A stretch of 25,914 nt of DNA from a virus. The position numbers and the translations under genes were made by a program. Location of the stretch: positions 1 to 25,914 of the IMG/VR virus record IMGVR_UViG_3300017971_000706; one strand, given 5' to 3'. Positions within the stretch are counted from its first letter, which is position 1. Every line of letters begins with the position of its first letter. Below are positions 4,079 to 22,772 of the stretch, one piece after another. The notes under the pieces were generated by a model. The model searched no databases and had not been told where the DNA came from. It saw only the letters and a program-made list of their open reading frames with translations.

Positions 4079-5017
4079 TTAGATAACCTTGACGTTGTAA
4101 CCCTTCACCACTGCCGTCTCTTCGGCGTACTTCACGTCGAATCGCAATGTGGCCACGATGCGCAGCACGCCAGCCGAGATATCCCTGTCGGATTCGATTT
4201 TGATCTGGCGCCAGATTCCAACGTGGATGTTCTTCGGGTCTGTCAGCAACACGTTGGTGCAGTGGTTGCCTGTACCGATGTTCTCCGGGAACATGGGTAC
4301 GGGTACGACTGGTACTCCTGCGTAGGGTACGGTGCCCGGTTTGATGAGCCAGTCGTCGCCTAGCGATGTCTCGCGCTCTGCGATGCTGTCTCTCCAGTCC
4401 GTCTCCGCGTCGATAGAAGTCAAGAACTTCATCTTGTTGCGATCCCGCAGGTACTCGGAGGGCATGGTTTTGATGATAGCCTTCAGAATGTCCTTGTCCA
4501 ATGGGCTATCAGTTGCGTTGGAAGTGTTGGAGGTGGCTTGCACGAATAGTCCGTCCAACTGCTTGAGGAACAGGTCGGTTGAGGTGGTGTCACCGTTGAT
4601 GATGACTTCCTCCATGTCCCTTGCGATAGCTTCTCCGAGGATGGCCATTATGGTCTGCTTGAGCTGGCCACGCTCGATGCTATCCTCCAGCACCTCGTCA
4701 CTTATACGCACTTCGGCCTTGAACAGCTTGGCGTCCAGCTCGACCTTGGAGAGATCGGGTTTGGTCCGGTCGGCTTCTGGCAGCGCGACCCCTTCGGAGC
4801 CAGCGCGTAGCACGCGGGAGCCAAAACGAATCTTCTCGATCAGCTGTTTTTGTGACCGCATTGGAACGACTGTCGCATGCTGCATGATGACAGATTCCTT
4901 AATAAGCAGTCGGATGAATTTCGCGGCCTGTGCGGGCAGTAAGAGACCGCCGCTGGTCAGGTCCGAAAGGGCCATGTCGGCCTTCTCCAGAATCACGCGA
5001 TTTGACGTGAGACCCAT
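4079..5017 (-). CDS. Major capsid protein, HK97 fold
   Basis: A 312-residue protein of the size of an HK97-fold shell protein that lacks a fused delta/scaffold domain. The N-terminal helix region ('[20 protein letters not shown]') leads into 'VVPMRS', then an E-loop-like segment, then the '[11 protein letters not shown]' and '[17 protein letters not shown]' helices with 'LKQLDGLF'. This series is typical of major capsid proteins beside XkdF-type proteases. The C-terminal part ends in strands ('[24 protein letters not shown]'). GGAGGTTATC directly precedes the ATG. The gene follows the protease and scaffold genes and precedes small head proteins, the standard order. The HK97-fold call rests on sequence style and context. 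Confidence 0.85.
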
Positions 5018-5037: not shown

Positions 5038-6135
5038 CTAGTCTTCCCAAAAATGGGGATCGTTTTTGCCAACCGCGCTCCTGTCGAAACGCGCATCGTT
5101 CATATCAGGCGGCCAAGAGATCTCGGCTGGCTCGCTTCTGATCTCTTCCGGCAACTCGGAGTTCGGCATACCCTCAGCCTTCTCCAATTTAACCAACCGG
5201 TCGCCTTGCTTTTTCAACTCTTTTTTGAGCGGGTCTACCTGGTCCTTCAACGTGCTGCCTACTTCTTTCAGCAGTGCGTCTTTGAGGCCGGAGATGAGGT
5301 CCGACTTCAACTCGTCCATGTTGACTGTGGACTTGGTGACTTCCTCACCATCGCCCTCTTCTTTTTTCTCCCCCTCGCTGTCTGCCGCTTCCTCGCCCTC
5401 GGGTTTCCCCTCACCCTCCGCTGGTTTCTTCTCTTCACCTGCTTCTGCGTTCTCGTCTGCTTTGGATTTAGGTGTGGGGTACTTCTCTCCGATGGAGCTT
5501 AACAGGGCTACGATGGAGTTGATCTCCGCTGCTAGATTTTTCGGAAGGGGCGTGGGGGTTTGATCTTCGGTTGTTTTGGCATCTTTGAGAGCGTTGACCA
5601 CGCTCATTAATCGCTCTTGCGCTTCGACCGTTATGCGTTTTACGGCTTCGGCAACAGGCTTGGGCAGCTCGATGGCCTTACTCGTTTCCCCTGGGAACTT
5701 CTCCCCAATGGAGTTGAGGGTATTCGCTATAGCTGCGAACAGGCCGGAGACTTCTTTCGGAAGCGAGTTTGATTTCTCGTCCGCCTCGGGAGCTCCCTCC
5801 ACCTGTTTGATCGCGTTGGTCAGTTTTCCTTCTGCCTCCTTTGCGATCTTCACCACGGCTTGCTTTACCGGTGTGGCGATAGCAGGCAGAGCCTTTTGTG
5901 TCTTGCTTTCGGACGACTCTTCAGTTACCGTCAGTTCTCCGTTCTCGTCCGTTACGACTTCTTGGCCTGTATTTAGGTCCATTTTATTCCTCCTCTTCAC
6001 AACTAGGAAGCGACGTTTATTTGCCGGGTGATCAACTAGGCTGACCTCTTGGACTATCATGTCCACAAGTCGCCTTGGCTTATCGCCTTTTACCTCTTCG
6101 TCGAATAGGCCCATAGTTTTATTGCCCGTCGTCAT
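5038..6135 (-). CDS. Scaffold-like protein carrying the protease end strand
   Basis: A 365-residue, highly charged protein. Residues 21-48 hold 'IVQEVSLVDHPANKRRFLV', the 'E-[IV]-S-L-V-D-x-P-A-N' motif normally found near the end of phage prohead protease domains. The rest looks like a scaffold: a helical tandem duplication (about residues 82-225), an acidic disordered stretch rich in Glu/Gly/Lys (about 226-265), a coiled-coil segment (about 272-320), and the end motif 'ISWPPDMN' (339-346) shared with another protein here. It lies between the protease-ending giant gene and the capsid gene, the expected scaffold place. The reading frame is the same as that of the giant gene, separated by 51 nt with several stops. 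It probably shapes the procapsid and is cleaved by the protease. Confidence 0.75.
   Translation of the reverse strand: MTTGNKTMGLFDEEVKGDKPRRLVDMIVQEVSLVDHPANKRRFLVVKRRNKMDLNTGQEVVTDENGELTVTEESSESKTQKALPAIATPVKQAVVKIAKEAEGKLTNAIKQVEGAPEADEKSNSLPKEVSGLFAAIANTLNSIGEKFPGETSKAIELPKPVAEAVKRITVEAQERLMSVVNALKDAKTTEDQTPTPLPKNLAAEINSIVALLSSIGEKYPTPKSKADENAEAGEEKKPAEGEGKPEGEEAADSEGEKKEEGDGEEVTKSTVNMDELKSDLISGLKDALLKEVGSTLKDQVDPLKKELKKQGDRLVKLEKAEGMPNSELPEEIRSEPAEISWPPDMNDARFDRSAVGKNDPHFWED
5461..5892 (-). repeat. Tandem duplication inside scaffold gene
   Basis: Two units of about 72 codons. Matching landmarks are 'LPAIATPVKQAVVKI' with 'LPKPVAEAVKRI', 'LPKEVS' with 'LPKNLA', and 'NSIGEKFP' with 'SSIGEKYP', offset by 72-74 residues. 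The units have diverged and each probably forms two helices. Confidence 0.7.
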
Positions 6136-6186: not shown

Positions 6187-9100
6187 TCAAGCGGCAACCC
6201 GGCGGGCCGAGCCGCCGATTGAGAAGCCTGTCAGTTTGCCTTCTTTCACGGCCTTCCACAACCCGTCGTCGATGATTCGAACAGCCATTAGCCATGTGCC
6301 AGCTTTAATCCGTGTACCGTCAATTGTCAAATCGCATGGTGCAACGTAGTTCTCGAGTATTTTGACTTTGCCGCTCACGATGTATCGGTGCATCAAGCCA
6401 ACACCGCCGAACTCTTCCATAAACTTGTGGCAGACGTTTCTAATCTCTTCCTTGCTGTAGATGTCGTTTTGAGCATCGACCGTTTCCGGTTCCAGCACTA
6501 TGCCGTAGACGAAGCGTTCTTCTTGCGTTTTGACTATCGGCAGGACTGATTCTTCACCGCGTTTTGTAATGTCGCAGAGGATGGACTCCAGGCACTTCTT
6601 TATTTCCCACGGGTGGGCTTTTCCGGCTACCTCTTCTGTCGTCATGGGCCGTTCGTTGGTCTTGTCGATCACAGTGGGGGTGAACCAGTGTATAAATTGC
6701 TGCCTACCCGGTGTCTTATCCACCAGCAACTCCGTCGACTCTACTCGCAGCACGTCGCCTGGCTTGGCGTCCAATTTAGCGCTAAACGTTTTGCCAATAG
6801 GCGTATAGAGCTTGCCGTTGATCTCCACCACCTCTTTCCACTTGTCTTTTTCGCTCTCTGGTATGGGGCCTATGGCGCAGTGGAAGTTGTATACTCCACT
6901 GGTTCCCTTTACCGGGTGGCGGTCGTAGACGATGGCCCGTATTTCCTGTACCTCTTTGAGCTTACCCCACGAAGACGTTTGCCCGCCCAGCGAATAGGTA
7001 GAGGAAGCGAGCTTGAGCATTACCCCTTCCGAGCCCGGCAGCTTCCTCGCCCAGCTCATAGCGCTTCTCATTTCGTCTACGTCGCCCACCATTTTGACCT
7101 CGGATAGAACTAGTGGCTGACGCTTGCCTTTGGCGCCTCCGAAGAAGTTATCCTCCAGTACCTTTCGGCGTGCTACGAACGACTCGGCGAGAAGGTTATG
7201 GCCTTGGTAGTACAGTATGTCGTGTACCATTAACCGCACGTTGGAATCGTCCTGTTTCTCCTTGCCTCTGAACATAGCCAAGTCGCGGCGTGGCATGAAG
7301 TCTCCAGCTTCGTTTATCGCCATAAATTCCGTGTCGATTATCCAATCGCCTGGAATCTTTTTAAGCTCTGCCGTTACGTAGGGCAGGAGGGGTAGGAGGT
7401 CGCGTTTCTCATCGTCGGTGAACGATAGCAATCGATCACCTTTTTTCTCAACCACGAACCTAAAGCCATTCCACTTTCCCTCCACGCCTACGCCTTGCTC
7501 CAGGTACTCCGGCTTGCCGAACTCTTCCATTGCCACGTTGGCATCGTCCAATAGCTTAGTCGGCTTCATCGGTTTGAATATTGCCAACGGGCGTAGCTCC
7601 GTTCTGTCCGTGTCTGGATCTTTCTTTTCTGGATCCCAGATCTGCACTCCGTCTTCGACGGGCACTGCCTTATCCACTTCTTCCTCGGTCGGATACTCCA
7701 CGTCGATGAGCGTAACGTCTCCTGCCAGCCACGGGTCGTCGTCGGCCTTGGACGTAGTTACTTCCTTATTAATTGCCAGAACCCAGATCGGGGAGTCTTT
7801 CTCCTCTGCCTCTAGCGTGTAGCTGCCCGTCAATTTCTTACCGCCGAAGCGTAGGTGCAATCGACCGGCATCCATCTCCTCCACCTCTACCTTGCCGCTG
7901 TCGATGATAGCTACTTGAGAGGGTGTGGCTTTGGTATCGTTGAGGACGTCCCCGTCGTACATCTCACCCGGTTCCACGGCTCCGTCCAATGTCAGTAGAG
8001 CCTTGCCTTTGACGCGGACCAGGTGGGCCGTGATAGCCTCCTCGCCGGAGAGCGGGTCGTGTTGCAACCTGTAATCGAGCAGGCCCTTGGTGTCGTCGAT
8101 AGCCAGGTGCCAGATCTGACGGCTCGGGGCGTTACGGACCGACGCCGGTCCTTTCCACCACTGCCAGGAGAGCACGAACTTGCGCTCGGCCTTGCCAACT
8201 CGTTTGTTACACCACCCTCCTACCCGCTCCTCATCTCCACAGATTATGCAGCGTGGATGTCCGTTGGGGTGTGTCCATTTTGCAGCCTGAAACTTATGCG
8301 GCTTGGTCGCTTCTGGTTTCTTTTTGTTCTCCGCGATCAAGGCGTTCTCCCTTTCGAGATCTGCCTGATCCGCTGGGCTGAGTTTTTTAGTAACGTCTTT
8401 AGGGGGAACGTAGAGGTACATCTTCTGTATAACTCTGCGGAACTCGCCGTTGACTATTTTAACGTTCTCCTCCGTAAAAAACTTCTCCTTTACCAATGCG
8501 TCGCGTGCCTCTTGCGCTTCTCTACCGTTCATTTCCCAGTAGCGGAATTGCTTGGGCGTTGCTTCTTCCAACGTGCTCGGTATGGCCGACCTTCCTTGAG
8601 GTGGCATGGTTCCTCGCTGTACGGCGTGGGGCTTGAGCACGGAGGGCAGAGCCGATTTAGAAACCATGCACGTCCAGAAGAAGCGGTCTGATGCCGGGTG
8701 CCCTTCGTCGTCCTGCTCGTTCTCCGCTGCTTCCTTCGCTCCTGACAGTTGGCGGAAGTACATCACCCCGTTGAGCGCCTTGCCGTTGGTGAAGAACTGC
8801 TCGTGGAAGTATGGCTTCTGAATACCCCACTCCACCTTGGGCCTATCGGCTACCACCATTACGCCTGCTTCCTCCCTGGTGCCTCCCACCGTACCAGGCT
8901 CGAACACTTTATTGTCCATATCCAGCCAGGCGAGCGGCTGCCTGCTTTTCGGGTAGCACGCCAGCCTTGCCGGTGCGATGAATGGCTTGGTGTACCGGCT
9001 ACCATCCGGTGAGAACTCGTCGGCTATCATCCTCGCCTGCTCCACCGTGTTCACGTCCGGCACTCGTCCTTCTCTTTGGTTAGCCATGGTCCAGCCTACC

Positions 9101-10806
9101 AAGTAGCCGTCGATTTTCATTCGCAAGTCCATGTGCAACGACTTCCCTCTGAAGTGGTACTGCACAACTGATTCCAGCTTGCCTTCTTTCTTAGGCCAGT
9201 CCATTAATGGGTCGTCCTGCTTGGCGACTGCCATCTGCTTGATCTCGTACTTCGGCCTGAATTGCACAACGAGATCTGCAAGCTCTATGTGGTTGGTGAA
9301 CGGTCCTCCCAAGTGGTCGTCCATTAATGATAGTCGTTTAGAGAGGTCGGGCGGCAGCATACGTCCAAGCCTGAAGTGCAGGACGTGCTTTAGCTCATCG
9401 CTAATCGGGCCTTTTACCAGGAGGTCTATATCGTTGTTCGTCTTCCCTCGATTGGGCAACCCGCCCACCATGTATAAGAACGGCATGCGAATCTTGAACG
9501 ACTCGAAGTGCTTGAGCACGTCGTCCATTAAAATCTCCGGCAGCTCTGCGCCATCGGCGGACGGTCGTATTACAGCCGCTGCTCGCTTGGCGTTACGCAT
9601 GTCTTCCGACTCCCTCCACAAGTCGTTATCGTGGCTAACGTTCATTCCTCGCAGGGTCATTTCGTCGATGATGAACACATAGGCGTTGAGCAGTGCCTCT
9701 CTATTCAGCTCGCCCACGCTCAGTTTATCATTGCCAGCAAAGTTAGCGCCGTGCAGTTGGTGCATACGGTGGTGTAGCGATAGCAGCTCCTGGTCGTCAA
9801 TGGGCCTTAACGACCTTGGGTTAATCTCGTCTATCGCCATCTTCGTCTCTGTTTGTACCTCGTACGGCTCATCCGCCTTTGCCAGTTGAGTTAAGTCTTC
9901 CTTCTTTGCCTTTGCCTGTTGGTATCGGGCGTCGAAGGCCTTTTGGAAATCTAGCGACTCTCGAATACAGAACTTGAGCCTTCCTTCCCACCCGCTCGGG
10001 TCCAGCTTACGCCTGTTGAATCTACCTCTTACCTCTTGCGACATTCCCCTCCACGGCCCACCGTGCATACGCGGCCAGCCGTCTGGATCTTTCGTAACCC
10101 ACATCACCCGTCCGAACGCCCTTGGCCCAACGGCGTACGAAGCGGGGTCGACGGAATCGATGATGTCCCAGTAGCGTAAATAGTATCGCAGGCGGTTAGC
10201 TGCCACGCCCAACAGGTGGATCTTCGTTTTCGGCACGAGGTAGGCAAGCTCTGCGCGTTGAGCCAGGCGGTCCCTGATTATCTGCCTGTACAATTGTCGC
10301 AGCTTGTCGTAGGGCAGCTTGTCGTTAACCTTTGAGCCGCTTGGCGCGATGGCCAGTGGGTTGTTAGGGCTGGCTCCAGTGAGCAAGCCTGCCCAGCAGA
10401 TCTTATCTCCCGACCGGTACACGGGGTCCAGCTTATTGGTAAACTTGTACCACATATGGTCGACGAGGATGGGGTTGAACCCTTTGCCCTTCATCGTTTC
10501 GTAGTTACGCAGCGTTACCCCTCTGTTTCTAAGATCGTCTAGCACCACGTACTCGTCGAACAGGCCCTTATGGTCGGACAGGAACTTGAGGTAATCTTTC
10601 AACACCACCGTGCCAGGCGCTTTGAAGTTAGTGAAGGCGCCCGAGTCCAGCATGAGCGAAACGCCGTCTTGCCTCTTCAGCTTGTCGAGGTGCTTTACGT
10701 GCATCTTTCCTTTGATGATATTCGCGTACGAGATCAGCATATGCGAAACCATAGGCCGGAGGTATTGAATATCCCTAGGCTCGTTTAAAGCGTAGTACCA
10801 CTTCAT
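6187..10806 (-). CDS. Giant fusion: DpdA/TGT-like, nucleotidyltransferase, LigD phosphoesterase, DNA ligase, XkdF prohead protease
   Basis: An uninterrupted 1539-residue frame. Residues 1-300: TGT/DpdA-like base-exchange domain, with 'LMLDSGAF' (D54), 'YVVLDD', 'KIHLLGV' and 'DSVDPASYAVG' (candidate nucleophile D217). Residues 340-530: Pol-beta-type nucleotidyltransferase, 'GGLPNRG..NDIDLL' (D459, D461) and 'IELADLVV'. Residues 544-720: LigD 3'-phosphoesterase-like, 'VVQYHF..SLHMDLRM' (H551, H558, D560, R562) and 'GIQKPYFHE'. Residues 853-1015: a Cys cluster and a second, degenerate phosphoesterase-like region ending 'WVLAINK'. Residues 1070-1385: ATP-dependent ligase with motif I KWNGFR (K1111), 'DTEF', 'SEGVMLK', 'WGKLKE' and an OB fold. 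Residues 1430-1539: XkdF protease, 'VYGIVLEPETVDAQNDIY', 'GLMHR' (H1473) and 'GFSIGG' (S1529). It starts 3 nt after the ArcS-like gene, with GGGAG upstream. It could act whole or be self-cleaved. Confidence 0.82.
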   Translation of the reverse strand: MKWYYALNEPRDIQYLRPMVSHMLISYANIIKGKMHVKHLDKLKRQDGVSLMLDSGAFTNFKAPGTVVLKDYLKFLSDHKGLFDEYVVLDDLRNRGVTLRNYETMKGKGFNPILVDHMWYKFTNKLDPVYRSGDKICWAGLLTGASPNNPLAIAPSGSKVNDKLPYDKLRQLYRQIIRDRLAQRAELAYLVPKTKIHLLGVAANRLRYYLRYWDIIDSVDPASYAVGPRAFGRVMWVTKDPDGWPRMHGGPWRGMSQEVRGRFNRRKLDPSGWEGRLKFCIRESLDFQKAFDARYQQAKAKKEDLTQLAKADEPYEVQTETKMAIDEINPRSLRPIDDQELLSLHHRMHQLHGANFAGNDKLSVGELNREALLNAYVFIIDEMTLRGMNVSHDNDLWRESEDMRNAKRAAAVIRPSADGAELPEILMDDVLKHFESFKIRMPFLYMVGGLPNRGKTNNDIDLLVKGPISDELKHVLHFRLGRMLPPDLSKRLSLMDDHLGGPFTNHIELADLVVQFRPKYEIKQMAVAKQDDPLMDWPKKEGKLESVVQYHFRGKSLHMDLRMKIDGYLVGWTMANQREGRVPDVNTVEQARMIADEFSPDGSRYTKPFIAPARLACYPKSRQPLAWLDMDNKVFEPGTVGGTREEAGVMVVADRPKVEWGIQKPYFHEQFFTNGKALNGVMYFRQLSGAKEAAENEQDDEGHPASDRFFWTCMVSKSALPSVLKPHAVQRGTMPPQGRSAIPSTLEEATPKQFRYWEMNGREAQEARDALVKEKFFTEENVKIVNGEFRRVIQKMYLYVPPKDVTKKLSPADQADLERENALIAENKKKPEATKPHKFQAAKWTHPNGHPRCIICGDEERVGGWCNKRVGKAERKFVLSWQWWKGPASVRNAPSRQIWHLAIDDTKGLLDYRLQHDPLSGEEAITAHLVRVKGKALLTLDGAVEPGEMYDGDVLNDTKATPSQVAIIDSGKVEVEEMDAGRLHLRFGGKKLTGSYTLEAEEKDSPIWVLAINKEVTTSKADDDPWLAGDVTLIDVEYPTEEEVDKAVPVEDGVQIWDPEKKDPDTDRTELRPLAIFKPMKPTKLLDDANVAMEEFGKPEYLEQGVGVEGKWNGFRFVVEKKGDRLLSFTDDEKRDLLPLLPYVTAELKKIPGDWIIDTEFMAINEAGDFMPRRDLAMFRGKEKQDDSNVRLMVHDILYYQGHNLLAESFVARRKVLEDNFFGGAKGKRQPLVLSEVKMVGDVDEMRSAMSWARKLPGSEGVMLKLASSTYSLGGQTSSWGKLKEVQEIRAIVYDRHPVKGTSGVYNFHCAIGPIPESEKDKWKEVVEINGKLYTPIGKTFSAKLDAKPGDVLRVESTELLVDKTPGRQQFIHWFTPTVIDKTNERPMTTEEVAGKAHPWEIKKCLESILCDITKRGEESVLPIVKTQEERFVYGIVLEPETVDAQNDIYSKEEIRNVCHKFMEEFGGVGLMHRYIVSGKVKILENYVAPCDLTIDGTRIKAGTWLMAVRIIDDGLWKAVKEGKLTGFSIGGSARRVAA

Positions 10807-10809
10807 TGG

Positions 10810-11691
10810 CTACTCCCGTTCTTTGTCCAGCTCATTGACAGCACGTTCCAATGCGTGCAGGTGCTCAGTGAGCAGAAGGTTCTCATAGGTGTCGCGGTAG
10901 TGATTACCAAGCACCCATTTTATTTTTGGTTTAGCTTCTTGCGGCACGAGGTCCATCCCCCGCCGCACACCGTATGCGTAGAAGTCGGAGTACACTACTA
11001 CGGAATCATAGCGATGTTTGGTGAAGTACCACGACACGGCATCCACCACTCGCTCGATGTAGGGTACTCCCGAATCGTAGTGCGGCATATACTCCCATAG
11101 CTCTTGCGGTGCCAGCCCCAGCACGCCCGTGGCTATTATCAGGTGCCATCCTTTCGGCATTATGTTGAGGATAGCTTTGTGCAGCGCCGATGGGTACGGT
11201 TTCTCCGCGGAGCATGGTGAGATGATAGCCAGGTTGCCTGGTGGCACGTAGTCGTTGAGCTTCTCTCTGAACGCCAGCACCTCCGGTCGGAAGAACGAAC
11301 CATTGCACGTTACCGGGAAGGCTTGCTTCTTACTCCATCTCACTCTCAACGAGCATGGCCATTCGGTGTCTGCCAGGTAGAGTGCGTGTACCAGCTCCGG
11401 CCTGCACGTCGATGAAACCTCCAGCACTCGGCGCTTGTCATCCGCCTCGGCGTAGGCTGCGGGCCAATCCATATTGCCAGCCTCCCACCCCGGCTGGTGC
11501 ACTTCGGCAACTGAGAGCACCTTGTGTCCAAGGTACTGCACGAACGGCGACCAGCATGACGGAACGTTCTCGCACTCTATAGTGTTCGTCGCGTAACCTA
11601 ATAGGCGAAAGAAGGCCAGCCACGCATCGTACTCGTGGGCGTAGGAAGCTCCTACTGCACCGCTGATTAACTCCGCACAATCGATTTTCAT
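10810..11691 (-). CDS. Archaeosine-synthase-like (ArcS/DUF5591) 7-deazaguanine enzyme
   Basis: A 293-residue protein. Its centre reads 'ISPCSAEKPYPSALH' (C160, K164, P165, Y166, H171), close to the ArcS signature P-C-x3-K-P-Y-x2-S-x2-H but with one residue fewer between Y and S. It is followed by 'TGVLGLAPQELWEYMPHYDS' (about 188-207), matching the 'L-G-x-V-P-x-E-L-x-x-x-Y-P' segment of the same family. In archaea ArcS acts on preQ0 in tRNA, the conserved Lys motif being essential. Here the substrate is more likely preQ0 as a free base or in DNA. It overlaps queC by 4 bp (ATGA) and precedes the DpdA-like fusion, so it probably decorates or converts the 7-substituent. The N-terminal 140 residues are not recognised. 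The exact product is unknown. Confidence 0.72.
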   Translation of the reverse strand: MKIDCAELISGAVGASYAHEYDAWLAFFRLLGYATNTIECENVPSCWSPFVQYLGHKVLSVAEVHQPGWEAGNMDWPAAYAEADDKRRVLEVSSTCRPELVHALYLADTEWPCSLRVRWSKKQAFPVTCNGSFFRPEVLAFREKLNDYVPPGNLAIISPCSAEKPYPSALHKAILNIMPKGWHLIIATGVLGLAPQELWEYMPHYDSGVPYIERVVDAVSWYFTKHRYDSVVVYSDFYAYGVRRGMDLVPQEAKPKIKWVLGNHYRDTYENLLLTEHLHALERAVNELDKERE

Positions 11692-12350
11692 TTTTCGTAC
11701 TCCGTTGGGTCTTTCACGCCAGCGTCTCTGAACGCTTCCTTACGCTCCGTGCAAGTACCGCATGTGCCGCAGTGCAGCTTGCCACCTCCACGGTAGCAGC
11801 TCCACGTCTTTTCGAAGGGCACCTTTAACTCTGCTCCTCGTTTCACTATTTCTGTTTTCGACATACCCGAGAACGGAGCCGATAGCTCCATGCAGCTCCA
11901 GTCGCATAGCCATAGGGCTTGTCGCATGGCTGCGATAAACTCCTCTCGACAGTCGGGGTAGATGGCGTGGTCGCCTTTGTGCGCTGCGTATGCGAGGGCG
12001 TTGCACTTGTTGGCTATGGCGTAGCCTGCGGCGATGGAGAGCATAATCATATTGCGATTAGGCACAACAGTGACCTTCATGTTCTCCGACTCGTAATGTC
12101 CGTCCGGCACCTCTACTGCATCGTTGAGCAGTGCGCTATTCCCTGCGATGATAGGTCCTATGCTACTCACGTCCGCTACTCGGTGCGGTACTTTTATGAG
12201 CTGGCACACCTCTTTGGCTTTTTCCAATTCGCAGCTATGGCGCTGTCCGTAATCGAAGGAGATAGCGAGCAGGCCGTGTCCTGCTTCTTTGAGGTGGTAC
12301 AGCAAGGTGGTTGAGTCCAGTCCTCCGCTTACTACCGCTACGATCTTCAT
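11688..12350 (-). CDS. queC: 7-cyano-7-deazaguanine (preQ0) synthase QueC
   Basis: A 220-residue protein of normal QueC length. QueC converts 7-carboxy-7-deazaguanine to preQ0 using ATP and ammonia. The PP-loop 'SGGLDSTT' is at residues 8-15, with '[12 protein letters not shown]' after it and 'VPNRNMIML' in the core, all QueC hallmarks. The zinc site is C185, C194, C197 and C200 in '[17 protein letters not shown]'. It overlaps folE upstream and the ArcS-like gene downstream by 4 bp each, so all are made from one coupled message. In phages QueC supplies preQ0 for insertion in DNA by DpdA-type enzymes, and the neighbouring DpdA-like domain fits that use. QueD and QueE are not in the window. Confidence 0.95.
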
Positions 12351-12958
12351 CGCTCACCTCCAAGATCCATCTCCATCAGTCTTAGCGCTTCTGCTCGTGC
12401 TGCCACGTCGTGGCGCAGGGCACCTTGCATATAGGAGGTGACGAGCCCGGCCCCGTTTTTCTCAACTCCTCGCGCTGCGAAACAGAGGTGGCGGGCTTTT
12501 ACCACCACCGCTACGCCCAGCGGCGCTATGGCTTCTTGTATGGCTTCGGCTATTTGTTTTGTCAGCCTCTCTTGGAGTTGAAGTCTTCTGGAGTATGCCT
12601 CCACCACCCTTGCCAATTTACTTGCTCCCACCACCCGGCCGTTGCCGTTGGGTATGTAGGCGACCGTGGCCGTACCGCTGAACGGCAAGATGTGATGTTC
12701 GCAGAACGACCAGAACTCGATTGGGCCCATGAGAATCATTTGGTCGTAGCCGTCCGATTCGAAATCGCGTTGCAGTATTTTTTGAGCATCGACCTTGTAG
12801 CCTTGGAACAATCTCCTCCACGATCTCACTACTCTCGCTGGAGTATCTTTGAGCCCCTCTCGATCTGGATCATCGCCTATGGCTTTGATCATAGCTCGCA
12901 CTATTTGCGTATGCTCTTGCTCTAACTTTGTCAGCTCGTTCGCTTCACTCTCGCTCAT
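12347..12958 (-). CDS. folE: GTP cyclohydrolase I (FolE)
   Basis: A 203-residue protein, slightly shorter than most bacterial FolE. FolE turns GTP into dihydroneopterin triphosphate, the first step of 7-deazaguanine (and folate) synthesis. '[18 protein letters not shown]' is the usual N-terminal signature. '[11 protein letters not shown]' carries zinc ligands C86 and H89, with C159 in '[14 protein letters not shown]' as the third. '[25 protein letters not shown]' is the long conserved block, given here as positions 109-133. It starts by a 4 bp overlap with the unknown gene upstream and overlaps queC at its end. With queC next to it and no folate genes around, a role in DNA base modification is the best reading. 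Confidence 0.94.
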
Positions 12959-13839
12959 TCTATTTCACCTTCTGATTCCTCTTCCGACTGCCAGCAGGCC
13001 TCTGCTGCTTCTTCGTAGATGGCGTCTCGCAGGTCGGCGTCGCTCAACTCTCCTCCGCCATCCTCCGGCCCTTGGAAGTCTTCGTCGTAGTGCTTCAGTG
13101 CCCACGTGGCTTTCACTTGCAGAGCCGACGCCTCATCGCTCAGTTCCCGCCACGACTTCTCCAAGTCGCGTGGCAGGTCGGCGGGGCGTTGGCTCAGTGC
13201 TGCTACCAGCGCGTCGATCACGTCGAGCGGGTTGGAGCTTTCCTTTGCCAGGTCGCACTTCTCTATCTCCATGCCGTCCAGGCTATAGGCCAGCTCCTCT
13301 GTCTTTTCAGCCAAACTCCTGCAACCTGCTGCAAGTGTAGGAGCCAGCGAGTCTATTTCCTTTGCATAGCCTGGTAGGGTATCGCTGGTCCATGCCAGTG
13401 CCACCTTGAGAATGGAGAGGCGTTTAGCTGTATGTTCGTTCAGTTCCATGCTATCCATCGCCACTCCCGACCAGTCGAATTTTTCTATCATCCTGGTAGA
13501 GCCGTAGATGCTTTCATCCAGCGGTCGTGGTTTATCGAACAGTTCCACAACGATTACCGGGTACAGCGAGAACTTCCTTACAGAAGGCCACTGTGCTCGT
13601 CGCTCGTCGTGCGACAGTCCGTGTTCTTCTTGTCTCTTGGCCAGTTGCTTTATGGTGACTGCTTCCGGCTCGCCCAGCTCCACGGTGCCCAGTACTTCTT
13701 CCGGTCCAACCAGGAGCGAGTGGCCAGCCACGTCTTCTGCTGCTGGCACGACCACGCACGTCTCCATGCCCTTGGCGATCTTGTCGCCGTGCGTACCAGC
13801 TACGTATAGTGCCCTAGCGGGCAGAGCGGAGATATTCAT
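12955..13839 (-). CDS. Hypothetical protein, first gene coupled to folE
   Basis: A 294-residue protein with no family I recognise. The N-terminal half is mixed alpha/beta and neutral; '[20 protein letters not shown]' looks like a buried strand after a helix. The middle is helical. The end (from about residue 250) is strongly acidic ('[20 protein letters not shown]', then Glu-rich). GGAGAGTAAA precedes the ATG at 13839. Its stop overlaps the folE start by 4 bp (ATGA), so it is produced together with the base-modification enzymes. That coupling suggests, but does not show, a role in the same pathway. It could instead be a head protein that folE was inserted behind. Confidence 0.55.
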
Positions 13840-14754: not shown

Positions 14755-15709
14755 TGTCTACCTCTATAAACTGCCCTCTCACCATAGCCATGTAGAGGCC
14801 TACCTGGTTGGGCGCCAATTCGTATGCCAACCCGATCTCGTATTTTCTAGTGGGCACCGTTCGTTTAGCTATGCTGGCCGTCAACAATGTTGCTTCTTTA
14901 TCGTAGCTCGTTTCCTTCACCGCTCCGTCGTACCAGTCTATCCACGGTCCTGGGTAGGCCATTATGGCCGGTGTTATCCTACGTGGCTGGTGAGGCAGTG
15001 CCATTTGTCTTCTCACCAATTTGGCGGCGTCCATATTTTTCCCCAGCGTGTCTACGTACAGTTGCACCGCCCAGCGGAGCGTGCTCAAGTCGCTCTTTGT
15101 GGGCGTTAGTATCAGCCTCCGTTCCGGCAGGTACTCCGGTTCTCTCACGTTGGCGTAATGGAGTGGTGGGAACTCTTCTTTGCTCATAGCCTTAATCAGA
15201 ATCCACCCGACCGTACCCAACGCCGCCTCATGGTCTTTGTTGTTCACCTTGCTGACATTTTTAAGTCCGTTCGTATCCGGCTTGGCGAATGTGAGGCGTG
15301 GCAGTACCGGCTCGTCGTTGTATTGGCTTGCTGTCTCGATGACGATGGCTCCCACCTCGTCTCTACGCAGTTGTCTCCTCAGCGATTCGCTTCTTTCTTT
15401 TACCAGCGACGCCACCTCTCCGAGCGCGTCGGCAATCCTTCGCTCCACCTGCTCTTCGAATTTCACACCAGGTCGGAGGCCTGTTCTGTACCACTTCACT
15501 TCTTTACCAGTCCACCGTTCTTCTTTTATCAGGCCGGAGCGAAGGGCGTTGTTGTACATAGGCCACGTCTGGAATACTTCCAGCGTAATGCCTCTCTCGT
15601 TCATCCACTCGCCGAACTCTTTCGATCTATAGGGTGGCACGGTCCACTTGGTACGCAGCCATTCTGCGTTCTCCGGTTCTGTGCCGAGATCTGGTACTAC
15701 TCTACTCAC
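14744..15709 (-). CDS. Hypothetical protein following the minor head protein
   Basis: A 321-residue protein that I do not recognise. Residues 1-100 hold several Trp and charged residues ('WMNERGITLEVFQTWPMYNN'). A charged helix 'VERRIADALGEVASLVKERS' follows at about 96-115, and the rest is mixed alpha/beta. The start is GTG, 8 bp inside the end of the minor head gene, with AAGG upstream. This strong coupling suggests a protein needed in similar amounts to the minor head protein. A portal-associated, neck or internal virion protein is possible, but none is supported by a motif. Confidence 0.55.
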   Translation of the reverse strand: MSRVVPDLGTEPENAEWLRTKWTVPPYRSKEFGEWMNERGITLEVFQTWPMYNNALRSGLIKEERWTGKEVKWYRTGLRPGVKFEEQVERRIADALGEVASLVKERSESLRRQLRRDEVGAIVIETASQYNDEPVLPRLTFAKPDTNGLKNVSKVNNKDHEAALGTVGWILIKAMSKEEFPPLHYANVREPEYLPERRLILTPTKSDLSTLRWAVQLYVDTLGKNMDAAKLVRRQMALPHQPRRITPAIMAYPGPWIDWYDGAVKETSYDKEATLLTASIAKRTVPTRKYEIGLAYELAPNQVGLYMAMVRGQFIEVDNGQ

Positions 15710-18221
15710 CTGCTAGTAACCTTCCAAGCTCTGCTCCCTTCTCTACGGGAGAGTCGATGAAAGCGTCCAGGTTTGATCTGCTTATTCCTGCTGCGCTCAC
15801 TGTGTCTGTGCCTCCTAATACGACCACCTCGTACTCGTCCGCTAAGCCAAGGCCTGTAGAGTGCAACGAGAAGACTCTTTCCCTTGGCACTTCTTGGAAC
15901 GTTATCTTGGATGCTCTGTGGTAGTCGCTGGTATCGAGTGCGAAATTCATAGCGGTAGTGCCGTCGTGCGACGTGGAGATCAACGGCTGTTCGGAGATGG
16001 TTTCGGAGTAGTACTTGCCGTCGAATCTTTGCCCAGCGCCCAACGCTTTGTTGTACCGGCCCTTGTTGTACTTCATTCCTCTAAACACCTTAACGCTTTT
16101 TATTCCCTTCTCCTTCAAAACTTCCTGGGTATGGTTATACATGGAGCGCAGCGTCTTACGTGCGCCTCTTACTGCTGCCTCATCGAAGCTGCGATTAATC
16201 ATAGGCAGCTTCATGTTGAGGCGAGCCACGTCTGCCTTTGCCAGGTCGAACTCCAGCCTTGCCGCGTGTTGCAGCAGGAGGGCGTTGGGTGAGTTATCAC
16301 CGCTCGTCTCGTCCCATGTGCTAATCACTCTATCTATTGTAGTACGTGTAGCTTTACTCAGCTCCGCGTCGGACGTAACCGAATAGAACTCTTTCTTGCT
16401 CAACTCCTCCCACTGTCTCACGAACTCTTTCACATCGGGATCTTTGTAGATGGGATCCGCGATCTTGAACAGGTCCGGCCCCTTTTTGCTTTTTGGTATT
16501 TTGTAGTATTGCTGTTCCAGCTCTTTCGCCAGTCCCGGTTTACCGTGGGCTGCTTTCAGGCTAGGCAGTTTCATCGGTTTCGTCTTAGGCGGGCGTACTA
16601 CTTCCTTTGGTGGTGGCGGAGTCTTCAACTTGGCAGTGGGCTTGCCGATCTTCGTAGGGCTGCCCTCGGTTGGGTTCTTCACCAAGCTCAACGGCCTTTG
16701 AGACAGGGTAGGTTTAGCCTTGGCTTTAGCTGGCGTGGTAGTTGGGAAGAGACCGGGCTGTGCGTCTTTGGGTTTAGCTACGGACGGCAGCGGTTTCTTA
16801 GGCGGCGCCTTTGTTGGCGGGGTCACTGGTCCGGGGTCTGCTTGGGCCGAGTAGCCGGAGGGGACTGCTACCGAGGACATACGCGGCACGGTGTAGGACC
16901 GGCATTGGTGGTGGTACGGTGGCGGTCCTATGTTGGCTACTTCCGGCAGTTGAGAATCGGGGACGAATGTTTTGTATTCCCCTCTGTCGTCTGCCGCTCC
17001 CACCCCGGAGCGTGTGATCATACCAATCGCGCTACCTCCTTCGGGCCCGATGTAGTACCTGCCTGGTTGCATACCTTCTTCGCGCCACGTTCTCAGGAAG
17101 GGAGCTGCTTGTTGTATAGTGCCGGGGCTGGCTGACATAGCGCGGTAGATGTTTCCTTCCGCCTTACGCACTTCGATAATCTTGCCATCCATGTACCGGC
17201 ATTGGTCTGTTGTTCTCTCATCGAGCACGGCCTGCACTTCCAATAGCTCTATTCCGGCCTCGGTGTATCCGGTTACTTCTGCGTACGTCCTTGCTCTGTT
17301 CACTGCCGTGCTTGCTGCTGCGCGGGCGTAGTTGACTCCGTACTGATCCCATAGTCCGGGGAGTTTTTGCAGGTCGCGTGCTATGGTCTGCTGTGCGAGT
17401 CCCTGCTTCATACCGTTCTCGATAATTCGCAGACCTTTTTTAGTAAGGGCCGCCGACCGTTTGCCCATATTGTCTTTCAAGTGCCAGCCTTGGTGTTGGG
17501 TCAAAGTGCTTATAGCCTTCGACTCCTCCATGCTCAGCGACGTTCTCAAGTCTATTCCGAAGGTATCTTTAAGCGCTGTCTTCGTGCCTGTAGCCGTGTT
17601 CTCCAAGGTGACTTGCATCCTTGGTTTCCAAGCGTCTGTGATTTTCTGCACGGACAGTTTATCGACCACCTTCTTCGTCACGTTGTCCATAGCCTTTTTC
17701 CAGGCTTCGGGCGTGATGTTTTTGAGCTTGCCCACTTCTTTCTTGAGGTGTTTTTCGAGCAGAGGCGCCGTCACTTTTCTTTCGGAGCTCATCATGGTCG
17801 ACGCGAGCATACCTGCTAGGCGTTTATAATCTACCGGCCCTCCCTTCCATGCTTTCTCCAGTAGGTAGCCGGTGGAGGTATCGACGAGCATGGCAGCTTC
17901 TGCCAGCTCGTCCGCCGGTTGCCATTCGATTCGTTCCAGCGTTCTCCAGACCGGAGTATCGTTTTTCGTCAGGGCCACTGCTTCGCAGATGGTGACGTTG
18001 CCGTTGAGCAGGAGGGCTTTGCGTCTTGCGTCTTCCAGCGACTTGGCGTGTGCCGCTAGTCTCCCTTCCTGCATGATGGCTATGCCGTGTGCTGCTTTGG
18101 GAAACACCGGGTCCACGCCTGCTGCGAGCAGGGCCGGTCCTGGCAGTGTACCCAGGTAGCGTGGTGGGTGACTAACGAGGTAGCCTCTTGCGAACGTGGT
18201 AGTGGGGAGGAGGTCTATCAC
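15702..18221 (-). CDS. SPP1 gp7-type minor head protein fused to ADP-ribosyltransferase
   Basis: An 839-residue protein. About residues 150-445 form the Mu F/SPP1 gp7 head-morphogenesis region: 'NYARAAASTAVNRARTY', 'DERTTDQCRYMDGK' (C341) and 'PPPYHHQC' (about 433-440) are its usual conserved blocks. A Pro/Lys linker (about 455-560) leads to a C-terminal ADP-ribosyltransferase of the R-S-E class: R714 in 'VKVFRGMKY', 'STS' at 749-751 in 'EQPLISTSHDG', and E796-x-E798 in 'DEYEVV'. All three catalytic motifs are intact, and the E-x-E form is typical of arginine-specific enzymes. The start is GTG, sharing one base with the portal stop. Such minor head proteins sit near the portal inside the capsid, so the enzyme could be ejected with the DNA to modify host proteins. 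Confidence 0.85.
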   Translation of the reverse strand: MIDLLPTTTFARGYLVSHPPRYLGTLPGPALLAAGVDPVFPKAAHGIAIMQEGRLAAHAKSLEDARRKALLLNGNVTICEAVALTKNDTPVWRTLERIEWQPADELAEAAMLVDTSTGYLLEKAWKGGPVDYKRLAGMLASTMMSSERKVTAPLLEKHLKKEVGKLKNITPEAWKKAMDNVTKKVVDKLSVQKITDAWKPRMQVTLENTATGTKTALKDTFGIDLRTSLSMEESKAISTLTQHQGWHLKDNMGKRSAALTKKGLRIIENGMKQGLAQQTIARDLQKLPGLWDQYGVNYARAAASTAVNRARTYAEVTGYTEAGIELLEVQAVLDERTTDQCRYMDGKIIEVRKAEGNIYRAMSASPGTIQQAAPFLRTWREEGMQPGRYYIGPEGGSAIGMITRSGVGAADDRGEYKTFVPDSQLPEVANIGPPPYHHQCRSYTVPRMSSVAVPSGYSAQADPGPVTPPTKAPPKKPLPSVAKPKDAQPGLFPTTTPAKAKAKPTLSQRPLSLVKNPTEGSPTKIGKPTAKLKTPPPPKEVVRPPKTKPMKLPSLKAAHGKPGLAKELEQQYYKIPKSKKGPDLFKIADPIYKDPDVKEFVRQWEELSKKEFYSVTSDAELSKATRTTIDRVISTWDETSGDNSPNALLLQHAARLEFDLAKADVARLNMKLPMINRSFDEAAVRGARKTLRSMYNHTQEVLKEKGIKSVKVFRGMKYNKGRYNKALGAGQRFDGKYYSETISEQPLISTSHDGTTAMNFALDTSDYHRASKITFQEVPRERVFSLHSTGLGLADEYEVVVLGGTDTVSAAGISRSNLDAFIDSPVEKGAELGRLLAGE

Positions 18222-20107
18222 TACTCTTCCATCTCCTCGTCGTCGTTGCTTTCCAAGCTAGGCAGGAGGAAGTCTGCCGAGTCCACGTCTGCCAGCTTGG
18301 ATTCTGTTTCTTCCAAGGCGTCGGTGACGTACCTATGCAGCAGGTGGAGGCGTTGTGTCTCCTGTCTCAGCGCTCTTATCGCTGATAGTTTGGGGTCGCC
18401 TTCTCCTATTGCTTCTGCGTTATTGGATGAGGAGTTATTGTTAGCTCTCATCTCTTCGGCGGTTGTGTCCAACGACTCCGGTCTGTATCCTGCCAATGCG
18501 AAGGGCAGGGACATGTTGCCCCAGTCTTGATCTACCTTATTATATTGCCGGTTGAAGATGTCCGAGGCGAGCACTCTTCCTTCGTTGGGCAGGAGCACGC
18601 CAGCCTTCACCAGCTTCTCCACCATTACTGTCATGCGTTCTGGATCTCTAGTCACTGGCGAGTTAGAGACGAAGGTCCAGTATTTTACTTCGTACTCGGA
18701 GAGCAGCTTGTGGTTTATCACGAAATCGAAGTCGTTCCTTTCCGGCTCGAACACCTGTTCTTCTGCGAAGCGGATGCTGGCTTGTGCGGTGGCGCGGTTA
18801 AGGGAGGCTGGTGTTTCTCCTCGCAGTATGGGGGGAAGCCTAAACGCCTGTCCCACCTTGTCGATGTTTCGTTCGTCGTACTTGGAGAACAGTTCTTCCT
18901 TGTACTGCGCTTCGGTAAGTGGTTTTAGTTCCAGCTTGAGCTTGCCTGTTTCCGCCGTGCCTTGTTCCTCCGCTTCGATGATGAGGATTTTATGGAAGTT
19001 CTCTTGCCCTTTAATCTCTCGGTCTATGTAGTTCTCCAGTCTTTCCACTGCGTTGTCGGCGAGTCTGCCGTTGCTAACGAGGAGGGCGAGTGGCGGGACG
19101 GATTTATTATCGAAGTAAGCCAGGTTCACTTCTTCAGCCGAGCGGCTACCTAATACGGAGAGGAGAGCGCCGATCCATCTTGGCACGCCGTATGGGGTAC
19201 GGGAGGAGTGGATGTTCCAGTAGATGATCTCCGTGGCTGGCGCATCCCCTTCTTGGATCATTTGTTCTCTTTCTTCTTCCGTGTTTATCACCTTACCTGT
19301 ACGCATGGAGACTGTACGCGGGTCGCCGAATTCTTTGAAGTAGACCACCTTGGTTCCGGTCGTCTGCGCGAAGTGTCTAAATCTTTTTCTTGTGGTGACA
19401 TCTTCGTAGGTGAGCGGGCCTGTCTTTTGTTTTCTGGTGATGGGCACGAATGGTCCGTTGAGCGGCATGAGCCGCATGGTATGGGATGGCACGTAGACGA
19501 GCCTGGAGACTTGGCCTGCTTTGTTACGCAACACTTCCCAGTATGCTCCGCCTGTTGTTTCCTTGTCCTCTCTGGTTATGCGTCGTAGCTTTGTGAAGGA
19601 GTAGCCGTCGGTGGCGGTAAACCCTTCGAACAGGTTACGCAGGAAGAGGTATTCTTTTCTGGCTTCTTTATGCATTGTTTTTATTTGCGTGTTTATCTGC
19701 TCGTCCGTTGGGTTGTCTCCGCCCGGCACGATGCCTTGCTCCATCAGGTCTCGCACTTGTTGTTTAGCTTCTTCGCCGTCCAGGTTGATGGTAGGTTCCC
19801 AGTGGTGGCCGAAGCCGTCTATGTTGGTAGCATATGCTTCCACGCATTGTTTGAGGGCGGAGGAGTGTTCGAGGAGGAAGCAGAGGGAGTTGAAGTCGTA
19901 TGGCGGGTCGAGTGCTCCTGCGGTTTGGAACGGCAGGTTGTTCTCGTCTGTTTCCGCCATAGCGCGGGACCATGCGTCCGAGCCTGGTTTATCTCCCACC
20001 ACTGTAGCTTTGAGCACGGTGGTTCTTTTTGCCTGTCCTTTGTAAGCTTCTTTGACCACGAAGGCGTGGTGTGGGTTTACGATGGGCTTGCCTTTGGCTT
20101 CCGTCAT
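18221..20107 (-). CDS. Portal protein, PBSX/XkdE type
   Basis: A 628-residue portal, the ring through which DNA is packaged and leaves. The core shows the family blocks: 'VPSHTMRL' (about 206-213), 'VVYFKEFGDPRTV' (about 254-266), 'IIYWNIHSSRTPYGVPRWIG' (about 294-313), 'YFDNKSVPPLALLVSNG' (about 331-347) and 'AFRLPPILRG'. The N-terminus is Lys-rich and the C-terminus acidic ('SNDDEEMEE'). It is longer than many portals of this group, with both ends extended. It begins 1 nt after the stop of the small beta-rich gene with AAGGA upstream, and is followed by the minor head protein, as usual for terminase-portal-minor head order. Confidence 0.92.
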   Translation of the reverse strand: MTEAKGKPIVNPHHAFVVKEAYKGQAKRTTVLKATVVGDKPGSDAWSRAMAETDENNLPFQTAGALDPPYDFNSLCFLLEHSSALKQCVEAYATNIDGFGHHWEPTINLDGEEAKQQVRDLMEQGIVPGGDNPTDEQINTQIKTMHKEARKEYLFLRNLFEGFTATDGYSFTKLRRITREDKETTGGAYWEVLRNKAGQVSRLVYVPSHTMRLMPLNGPFVPITRKQKTGPLTYEDVTTRKRFRHFAQTTGTKVVYFKEFGDPRTVSMRTGKVINTEEEREQMIQEGDAPATEIIYWNIHSSRTPYGVPRWIGALLSVLGSRSAEEVNLAYFDNKSVPPLALLVSNGRLADNAVERLENYIDREIKGQENFHKILIIEAEEQGTAETGKLKLELKPLTEAQYKEELFSKYDERNIDKVGQAFRLPPILRGETPASLNRATAQASIRFAEEQVFEPERNDFDFVINHKLLSEYEVKYWTFVSNSPVTRDPERMTVMVEKLVKAGVLLPNEGRVLASDIFNRQYNKVDQDWGNMSLPFALAGYRPESLDTTAEEMRANNNSSSNNAEAIGEGDPKLSAIRALRQETQRLHLLHRYVTDALEETESKLADVDSADFLLPSLESNDDEEMEE

Positions 20108-20477: not shown

Positions 20478-22043
20478 CTACTGGAAGGCTAGTTCCATAG
20501 GTTTCTTTTTTTTGTTTCCGCCCACCACTCTAACTCCTACCTTGGTTGAGTTACGCACTGAGCCTTTGAGCAATTTGAAAGCCAGGCCGAGGCCTTGGCT
20601 GAAGGCGTCTACCATGTCGTCGTGTCTGCCTATGGGGAACTCCATTAGCTCGCCGATCAAGTTACCTCGAGCCGGGTCCCATTCGCTACTTTCTGGATCC
20701 AGGTGTCTTGCGAACCTCACTTGATCTCTTTCCATGATTGGTGTCACGTCCATGAGGCGTTGGTACTTGGAGACTTTTGGTTTGCATATCTCCAGGTCTT
20801 TCATCATCTCCGGGTAGGATTCAACCAGCCATTGGTCCAACGTGGACTGGCCTGCTTTTTCCAAAGCCACGACTGGGTTGTACCAGCGTTGCCAATCTTT
20901 GTGCAGTGCTTCTACTTGTTGTCGCATAGTGATGCGAGCACGCCAAGCGTCTACCACGTAGATTTTATCGGCGCTTGGGTCTACTGCGAACACCACTCCT
21001 GCTGTATAGTCGTTCATTTCTTTCAGGCCGACTGCGGTGTCGTAGGAGGTAAGGTGTGGAGCGCCTTGTCCTGGAATGTCTGCGTTACGTGCGAATTTAA
21101 TCCACGAGTCTTTTATTGGTGCTATTGATTCGTCGTGCGCTTCGTTTCTGAAGGCTCTGTTGAAGTCGACGCTGCCGATCTCTTCGAACCTCTCTCTCAG
21201 TGCTGCCTCATTCCATTTGAGCCATAGGGATCCGAAGTTAGCAGGCACTGCGTAGAACAGCACGGTGTAGGCTGGATTTTTCATCAGCTCGTGGTTGAGA
21301 TCGTCCTTATGCCAGAGGGTACACACGCCCCATATTTTTCCGTCTGGCCCTAGTAGGTTGGTCCAGTCGTTCTTCCAGGCTTGTTTAATCTGCGCTCTTA
21401 GTGCTGGGAAGGCCAGGGCGTTTCTTCTATCCACCACGTCGTCCGGGAAGAGTATGTCCGCCCTACCTCCTGTGGCTGTGGAGGTAACGCCCACGGCTTC
21501 GATGCTTGCGTCTCTGTGTCTAGCTGGGCGTTGGAAGTAGATTTTATGTTTGGACCATTCGCCTTCTTCGTCGGGGTGGAGGTGTGGGAAGACCTCTTTG
21601 ATTCTCGGGTTGGTTTCCACGTGTTGCTTTATTTCGAAGAGTCGTTCTTTTGCCTTGCCGTCTGAAGCGCAGATTATTTTATGTCGCAGGTTGAGGTTGC
21701 GGCCCAGTTCCCATAGCGGCCTGCCCACAACTACCTGGGTGGACTTACCGTGGTATCGTGGTGCGACGATGAGCACGCGGTTATGATTAGACATGGCTGA
21801 GTCCCACTCGTCGTGGAACCATTGTTGCTGTAGTGGTTTATTATTTTCCTCGTCGTAGAAGCAGTACTCCATGAAGGCTCCGAAGTTCTGTCTGGCGAGG
21901 CGCACGTGGGCTAGTTGTAGAGCGGCTACTCTGCGTTTTTCTTCGGCTAGGGATTCTGCTGTTATTCTTCTTGAGGGCGGCACGCGGGGCAGGTGTCCTT
22001 TTGGTGCTTTGTAGTTGGGGTGCAGGTTGCCGATCTCGTTCAT
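20478..22043 (-). CDS. Terminase large subunit
   Basis: A 521-residue protein with both terminase domains. The ATPase has Walker A 'VAPRYHGKST' (93-102) and a Walker B region 'ADILFPDDVVD' (195-205), with the coupling-type segment 'WGVCTLWHKDD' (about 238-248). The RNase-H-like nuclease has the first acidic residue D335 in 'SYDTAVG', the second E395 in 'VALEKAGQS', and the last pair D475/D476 in 'GRHDDMVDAF'. All catalytic positions expected for DNA cutting and translocation are present. AAGGAAAAAAC precedes the ATG. The gene is separated from the probable small terminase gene by five small genes and a regulatory region, which is not the common adjacent pair. Confidence 0.95.
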   Translation of the reverse strand: MNEIGNLHPNYKAPKGHLPRVPPSRRITAESLAEEKRRVAALQLAHVRLARQNFGAFMEYCFYDEENNKPLQQQWFHDEWDSAMSNHNRVLIVAPRYHGKSTQVVVGRPLWELGRNLNLRHKIICASDGKAKERLFEIKQHVETNPRIKEVFPHLHPDEEGEWSKHKIYFQRPARHRDASIEAVGVTSTATGGRADILFPDDVVDRRNALAFPALRAQIKQAWKNDWTNLLGPDGKIWGVCTLWHKDDLNHELMKNPAYTVLFYAVPANFGSLWLKWNEAALRERFEEIGSVDFNRAFRNEAHDESIAPIKDSWIKFARNADIPGQGAPHLTSYDTAVGLKEMNDYTAGVVFAVDPSADKIYVVDAWRARITMRQQVEALHKDWQRWYNPVVALEKAGQSTLDQWLVESYPEMMKDLEICKPKVSKYQRLMDVTPIMERDQVRFARHLDPESSEWDPARGNLIGELMEFPIGRHDDMVDAFSQGLGLAFKLLKGSVRNSTKVGVRVVGGNKKKKPMELAFQ

Positions 22044-22127: not shown

Positions 22128-22772
22128 CTATCGTTTTAATAACAGAGGTTGCAGACGTGGTGTTGGTAACGCCACGGCCTGGCCTGTTCCTCTGTATTCT
22201 GCGGCGTACTCATTGAGCCATGCTATGGCTGTTTTGGAGGAGTCGTTTATAACGCCTCCGTACTTAACGGTGATGGCCATGCTTTCCAGGTGTTTTTGGG
22301 CGACGCGGATGTGTTTATCTTTGCAGCCGTAGTCGTACAGCTTCTCTGCCAGCGCCACTGGGTCCAGGACGTGGCCGGCGTACCAGAAGTGGAGCTCCAT
22401 GTTGGCTCCGTACGCTTCGGCCTCGACGTATGCGCGGTATGCTTTGTTGAAGATGTACTTTCTGGAGTAGCCGTTGTCGCGTCTATTCTGTTGGATGTGT
22501 TGGTGCTCGTGTACGCAGATAGCTATTTGGCTTTCCAGGCGTTTGGTGTTGGCGTCTCCGATAGTGAACGGGACGTATATCTTGCCGAACAGTGTAGTGG
22601 TGAAGTCGTTCATGAATTTCTTACCGGACATGATGCCGAAGTCGTCCATGAAGTTAGCGACGGCGCGCATGAGTTTGGACTTCTTTTTATTCACCACTTT
22701 GGTATCGTATTTTTTTTGCATGTAATGCCAGAAGTCTATGACCAGTTCTGGCGATAATTCTTTAGTGGACAT
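22128..22772 (-). CDS. Putative HEXXH zinc metallopeptidase
   Basis: A 214-residue protein. 'CVHEHQHIQQ' at 87-96 is an HEXXH motif (H88, E89, H92), the usual zinc and catalytic set of metallopeptidases. About 25 residues later, 'YVEAEAYGANME' (E117/E119) is placed to give the third, glutamate zinc ligand, as in gluzincins. The rest is helical, with a basic N-terminal part and no signal peptide or membrane span, so it acts in the cytoplasm or within the virion. GGAGGTATT directly precedes the ATG. Possible tasks are processing of a virion protein, cell-wall or host-protein cleavage. The real protease for head maturation is probably the XkdF domain, so this would be a second one. Activity is inferred from the motif only. 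Confidence 0.65.
   Translation of the reverse strand: MSTKELSPELVIDFWHYMQKKYDTKVVNKKKSKLMRAVANFMDDFGIMSGKKFMNDFTTTLFGKIYVPFTIGDANTKRLESQIAICVHEHQHIQQNRRDNGYSRKYIFNKAYRAYVEAEAYGANMELHFWYAGHVLDPVALAEKLYDYGCKDKHIRVAQKHLESMAITVKYGGVINDSSKTAIAWLNEYAAEYRGTGQAVALPTPRLQPLLLKR

Follow-up and report, generated by a model that had tools for sequence, protein, structure and literature searches.

A viral head maturation protease fused to a predicted DNA-marking enzyme and a LigD-like end-healing set

The window, by which the whole analysed stretch of 25,914 nucleotides from the virus record IMGVR_UViG_3300017971_000706 is meant, contains a head operon in which the order is portal, MuF, FolE, QueC, ArcS-like, polyprotein, scaffold and capsid. 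The polyprotein gene is an intact frame of 1539 codons on the minus strand, which starts with ATG and occupies exactly positions 6187-10806. The features on which the argument depends are listed below, the residue numbers being those of the polyprotein.

20478..22043, minus strand: terminase large subunit
18221..20107, minus strand: portal
15702..18221, minus strand: MuF head protein
12955..13839, minus strand: stand-alone gene with an N-terminal ASCH fold, according to the predicted structure
12347..12958, minus strand: FolE GTP cyclohydrolase I
11688..12350, minus strand: QueC
10810..11691, minus strand: ArcS-like (DUF5591) protein
6187..10806, minus strand: polyprotein of 1539 residues with the order DpdA, helical linker, nucleotidyltransferase (NTase), PE1, PE2, ligase, OB, XkdF
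9847..10806, minus strand: DpdA, TGT-like 7-deazaguanine-inserting enzyme, residues 1-320
9592..9846, minus strand: conserved linker domain, residues 321-405, predicted to be helical from its sequence pattern
9226..9576, minus strand: Pol-beta-superfamily (MNT-like) NTase, residues 411-527, with a GG...DID motif
8482..9216, minus strand: PE1, LigD-type phosphoesterase-like domain, residues 531-775, with the motif QKPYFHE
8209..8250, minus strand: possible Zn site CxxC...C, residues 853-866, proposed from sequence
7762..8187, minus strand: PE2, LigD phosphoesterase fold, residues 874-1015, catalytic residues lost
6940..7506, minus strand: ATP-dependent ligase core, residues 1101-1289
6652..6936, minus strand: OB-like domain behind the ligase, residues 1291-1385, identified by its position and by the family profile
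6196..6537, minus strand: XkdF (Peptidase_S78_2) head maturation protease, residues 1424-1537
5038..6135, minus strand: scaffold-like protein, directly after the protease
4079..5017, minus strand: HK97-fold major capsid protein

The FolE, QueC and ArcS-like frames in front of the polyprotein gene overlap or touch. The ASCH-fold gene adjoins FolE, and in other viruses an ASCH domain is located inside the polyprotein. In the C-terminal half of the MuF protein, which gave no Pfam match, two stretches (VFRGMKYNKG and STSHDGTTAMNFA) look ADP-ribosyltransferase-like by eye. The protein encoded at 22128-22772 strongly matches PHROG 13834, whose function is unknown, and gives a weak metallopeptidase match below the cut-off.

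An earlier note had placed a DpdA domain, a Pol-beta-type NTase, two LigD phosphoesterase-like regions, a ligase and XkdF in this one frame, and the composition was confirmed. The profiles of the ligase (PF01068, residues 1103-1284, 1.6e-21, over the cut-off), of XkdF (PF14550, residues 1424-1537, 2.6e-30) and of DpdA (PHROG 887, queuine tRNA-ribosyltransferase, residues 19-346, 1.9e-11) all matched in the polyprotein. A PADLOC search gave no match.

Comparison of the DpdA segment with nine phage DpdAs by hhalign gave a probability of 96.6% (6e-10). The columns invariant in these nine proteins are, in the numbering of phage 9g, D72-S-G-A75, H141, H196, G199, S213 and D215, and all of them are kept in the window as D54-S-G-A57, H117, H197, G200, S218 and D220. 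A tblastn search of 50,697 phage records with the same segment returned weak matches, and among the listed matches with gene names almost all are of the DpdA type; a sequence search against solved structures found no TGT. A chance match to DpdA is ruled out by the residue conservation together with the gene context. In the window, FolE and QueC adjoin the fusion gene; QueD and QueE were not seen in this genome fragment. DpdA-XkdF fusions were found in three distinct viruses, each with QueC, which is present in every searched record whose DpdA is fused (window, L097/L098, L163) and in 0 of the 17 records without fused DpdA. In L096, genes for FolE, QueC, a PTPS-family (QueD-like) protein and a radical-SAM (QueE-like) protein stand right before the fusion. 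In the records searched, fused DpdA is exclusively linked to preQ0 genes, and the DpdA of the window virus is predicted to put 7-deazaguanine into DNA. The DpdA of L163 is the sister of that in the window (33% identity, 2e-48). In a small tree the DpdA of L096, which was recognised by an incomplete profile match together with motifs and context, lies on a separate branch; therefore the fusion of DpdA may have arisen more than once.

The linker is common to the sister fusions and marks the border at which DpdA and methyltransferase are swapped. In the NTase, the motif reads V447GG..D459ID, and E508 and D511 are the candidates for the third acidic residue, which is missing in many relatives. In the predicted structure, which covers residues 401-1070 (mean pLDDT 77.8), MNT antitoxins are the nearest to the NTase in fold (Z 6.4, with an rmsd of 3.5 over 80 residues), although the MNT matches taken together (Z 5.1-6.4 over about 80 residues) are of middling score.

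Both LigD-type regions proposed in the earlier note are present, but PE2 is degenerate and PE1 is altered. In PE1, the LigD metal site His42/His48/Asp50 with Arg52 is matched by H551/H558/D560/R562, and the metal triad is invariant in all 22 aligned members. The phosphate site His84/Tyr88 of bacterial LigD, on the other hand, is without equivalents in PE1, where Q and W are found when the motif is matched by eye. Residues 531-576 match TIGR02777 (NCBIfam) with 1.7e-4, which is under the cut-off of the model. As PE1 gave no LigD match when the complete model was compared by fold, the assignment of this domain rests on sequence. The predicted fold of PE2 resembles solved LigD phosphoesterases (Z 15.9 with 3p43, rmsd 2.4 over 121 residues; Foldseek match 5.6e-6); its metal residues are lost in the window, whereas L013-L015 keep H...HWDLR. 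The putative Zn site between PE1 and PE2 was not seen in the aligned relatives.

The ligase core contains K1111 within KWNGFR as motif I, EGVMLK as motif IV and WGKLK as motif V; it is absent in L006-L009. Most XkdF fusions that bear a ligase core have KxNGxR in place of KxDG, the form that predominates among the unfused members. Because most ligase-bearing XkdF fusions have it, KxNGxR is regarded as a conserved signature and not as a recent mutation. The XkdF domain combines its profile match with the conserved H1473 and S1529 and with a position upstream of scaffold and capsid. Key residues are retained in DpdA, in the metal site of PE1, in the ligase and in the protease.

A scan of viral contigs with a PE alignment yielded 41 loci of two layouts, namely XkdF fusions on the one side and NTase-LIG-OB plus PE proteins without XkdF on the other. 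Another 98 matches, several of them on the same contigs, came from scans with the linker-NTase region and with XkdF by itself. No domain was detected after XkdF in any of the 77 distinct proteins, which have scaffold or capsid downstream in 74 cases and portal or MuF upstream in 48. Other modules were detected in 53 of the 77 (adenine methyltransferases, DpdA, ASCH, nucleotidyltransferase, phosphoesterases, ligase), and some XkdF proteins have no detected module. In the set selected by XkdF only, 38 of the 59 ORFs with complete 5' ends contain another detected module; a methyltransferase or DpdA is present in 20 of these 59 ORFs and a ligase in 12. The N-terminal modules include one or two D12 methyltransferases, DpdA and ASCH. 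The same backbone order recurs in independent fused relatives, such as L092 (MTase-NTase-PE1-PE2-LIG-OB-XkdF, 1629 aa) and L096 (DpdA-MTase-NTase-PE1-PE2-LIG-OB-XkdF, 2226 aa), and the same kind of fusion is found in distant viruses, also in L107, L160 and L184.

The near neighbours L006-L008 have the head cluster in common with the window (portal 44%, capsid 65%), carry an adenine methyltransferase in place of DpdA, and their ligase core is cleanly missing. Between L008 and the window, residues 321-1056 and 1282-1537 align with 48-55%. Modules are swapped at clean borders on one backbone. The polyprotein is a member of a large, undescribed family of proteins with interchangeable modules, which probably hold DNA-protecting tools within virus particles; a literature search, mostly outside subscription papers, found no paper describing this protein family. 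An inorganic pyrophosphatase domain is present in the 1228-residue XkdF protein of L145 (2662-6348). Some XkdF loci have IMG genome numbers instead of metagenome numbers and may come from proviruses of isolates; among them L115, L116, L118 and L119 encode MTase-XkdF, and L176 encodes NTase-MTase-LIG-PE-XkdF. The label 'DNA methyltransferase' of PHROG 1530 is distrusted, as the labelled gene of phage PA10 (L078, 2899-3369) has only 156 aa at the head-protease match and its label looks inherited from fusion relatives.

Relatives without the fusion are also found amid virion genes. The ANMV-1 protein AJP62006.1, annotated as an ATP-dependent DNA ligase, is homologous to the NTase, PE1, PE2, ligase and OB of the window in another order, the ligase being ahead of PE1, and differs from the window protein in having neither DpdA nor XkdF. 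This permuted set adjoins the portal, and in L013, L022, L029 and L034 the unfused set adjoins portal, head protease or capsid genes. The adjacent ANMV-1 record entry AJP62005.1 (L004, 1913-3193), annotated as 'MutT-like phage hydrolase', matches portal PF06381 with 3e-22. A first profile scan of genome contigs, made with a two-sequence alignment, gave no match; the second scan found two unfused loci in Archaeoglobales and Thermoprotei MAG contigs. Unfused relatives also bring a metallo-beta-lactamase, a PNK 3'-phosphatase and a 2H phosphoesterase, and the latter two, which accompany the ligase set in L020, point to end healing. Apparent LAGLIDADG inteins (L029 aa 992-1310, L024 aa ~545-720, L039 aa 292-401, L040 aa 154-514) sit at several different sites of the ligase/phosphoesterase proteins. 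As to the host, the clues point both ways: Shine-Dalgarno-like sites are present in the window and its capsid is closest to those of bacterial phages, while some relatives of the ligase set belong to archaeal viruses; PCNA, a marker of archaeal hosts, was not found in 13 records.

The earlier note had tied a DNA modification and repair set to the head protease. This idea held up, and it is strengthened by the comparison across relatives, because XkdF invariably ends the series of detected domains, the modules are swapped at clean borders and the unfused relatives lie among head genes.

Several enzyme domains in one chain, encoded amid virion genes, are what characterizes the polyvalent phage proteins, which are described as multidomain proteins of virion context with conflict enzymes and Pol-beta NTases (Iyer et al. 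2017, PMC5512222). In the available text of that paper, C-terminal assemblin-like head proteases are rare among polyvalent proteins, P1 DarB is a packaged methylase that protects phage DNA in cis, the ligases mentioned are RNA ligases that were not encountered alongside 2H domains, and the terms queuine and archaeosine are absent; the LigD-PE/ligase/DpdA set of the window is not among the polyvalent proteins described there. Phage DpdA, for example that of 9g, resembles the window domain in its key invariant residues and adjacent preQ0 genes; it is, however, a stand-alone protein, whereas the window DpdA is fused to an end-healing set and a head protease. The methyltransferase-XkdF proteins of PHROG 13242 also fuse a DNA-marking enzyme to a C-terminal XkdF but, judged by profile length, are without the end-healing set and without DpdA. 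Bacterial LigD likewise combines PE and an ATP-dependent ligase in one chain. Its POL domain is an AEP primase, whereas the window has an MNT-like NTase instead, and profile scans of the window proteins gave no primase match. Polyvalent proteins with C-terminal head proteases, methyltransferase-XkdF fusions (in PHROGs) and DpdA as a single protein are already known; what is new is that DpdA and a LigD-like end-healing set are joined on a polyvalent chassis, that the family is so large and modular, and that it is tied to preQ0 genes.

What function(s) could such a chain perform? We consider it somewhat more probable than its opposite that the polyprotein is a polyvalent head protein, which uses its protease to bring a kit for DNA marking and end healing into the procapsid. 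The C-terminal XkdF would target the chain into the procapsid and cut it during head maturation, and the freed enzymes, being too large to exit, would remain with the genome; packaging, cleavage and the enzymatic activity of the modules are what we infer here. The N-terminal part would be the DNA-marking enzyme (DpdA in the window, an N6-adenine methyltransferase in sister viruses), and the middle part an end-healing and sealing set of LigD-type phosphoesterase, ligase with OB and MNT nucleotidyltransferase. PreQ0 made by FolE and QueC, together with QueD and QueE from the host or from the missing part of the genome, would feed DpdA, which could mark the genome against restriction at packaging and/or on entry, and the ArcS-like protein may finish the modified base. 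PE1 and the ligase might be an end-joining kit brought along by the virus, which cleans and seals genome ends or nicks, either for circularisation or to repair cuts made by host nucleases. Corndog, with a phage Ku, is a precedent for end joining at entry (PMC4351075), and P1 DarB is one for marking in cis by a packaged enzyme (PMC5512222). The lost metal residues of PE2, the missing H84/Y88 equivalents of PE1, the KxNG form of motif I, the missing ligase core of L006-L009 and the XkdF proteins in which no module was detected speak against this proposal.

That virus-made preQ0 is available late makes marking by DpdA easier to explain during packaging than at entry, and the action of DpdA may be confined to the producing cell, preQ0 being unready at entry. 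The ligase/PE part makes sense at entry, for end sealing and repair of cuts. The alternative that survives best, although we regard it as unlikely, is that the enzymes work late in the cytoplasm of the producing cell and none is packaged; the fusion would then do no more than couple expression of the enzymes to the assembly of heads, or the protease would later free or destroy them. The location of FolE, QueC and the ArcS-like gene in the head operon, which places preQ0 on hand late, agrees with it, and phage 9g modifies its bases with a free DpdA (PMC6884629), but it leaves unexplained why XkdF is constantly fused at the C-terminus to varied modules, as well as the parallel with DarB as a packaged enzyme (PMC5512222).

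Still less probable is that the ligase, PE and NTase, after delivery, mend RNA, such as tRNA or mRNA that host defence has cut, and not DNA. MNT-type nucleotidyltransferases of toxin-antitoxin systems act on proteins or tRNA, L020 has a 2H phosphoesterase and relatives give weak RNA_ligase/capping-enzyme matches; against these stand the best ligase profile (DNA_ligase_A_M), the best solved relatives, which are DNA ligases, the LigD PE fold and the partner modules, which are DNA-modifying enzymes. It is very improbable that most enzyme modules have decayed into a DNA-binding internal scaffold that fills or organises the head; the degenerate PE2 and the lack of the ligase core in L006-L009 would fit, but distant members conserve the residues of DpdA, the metal site of PE1, and both the lysine and the KxNGxR motif of the ligase. 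An artefact, in which assembly or a frame error merged separate genes, has a negligible probability: such errors do arise in this family, as in the twins L010 and L011 (one mismatch and one indel apart), where the broken frame in L010 separates XkdF from the polyprotein, but the frame error that the earlier note named as a possible refutation is ruled out by a second contig (L002, 12,477 bp), which is 100% identical and gapless over the gene, and by many independent full-length fusions in distant viruses.

A bolder reading, to which we give less than even confidence, is that in a broad range of tailed viruses, archaeal ones among them, the head maturation proteases serve as docks for virion-borne marking and end-joining kits. 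The genome would be marked with 7-deazaguanine or N6-methyladenine, and enzymes freed in the head would heal and seal its ends or cuts, without Ku and before viral expression. Three fields that have been studied separately meet in the polyprotein, namely the maturation of heads, base modification that counters restriction, and the repair of DNA ends. Should the modules be packaged, the virus would deliver its own anti-restriction marking and break repair to the cell ahead of gene expression. The swap between DpdA and methyltransferase on one backbone, with preQ0 genes tracking DpdA, amounts to a natural experiment through which the function can be tested, and the family offers new types of ligase and phosphoesterase, some of archaeal-virus origin.
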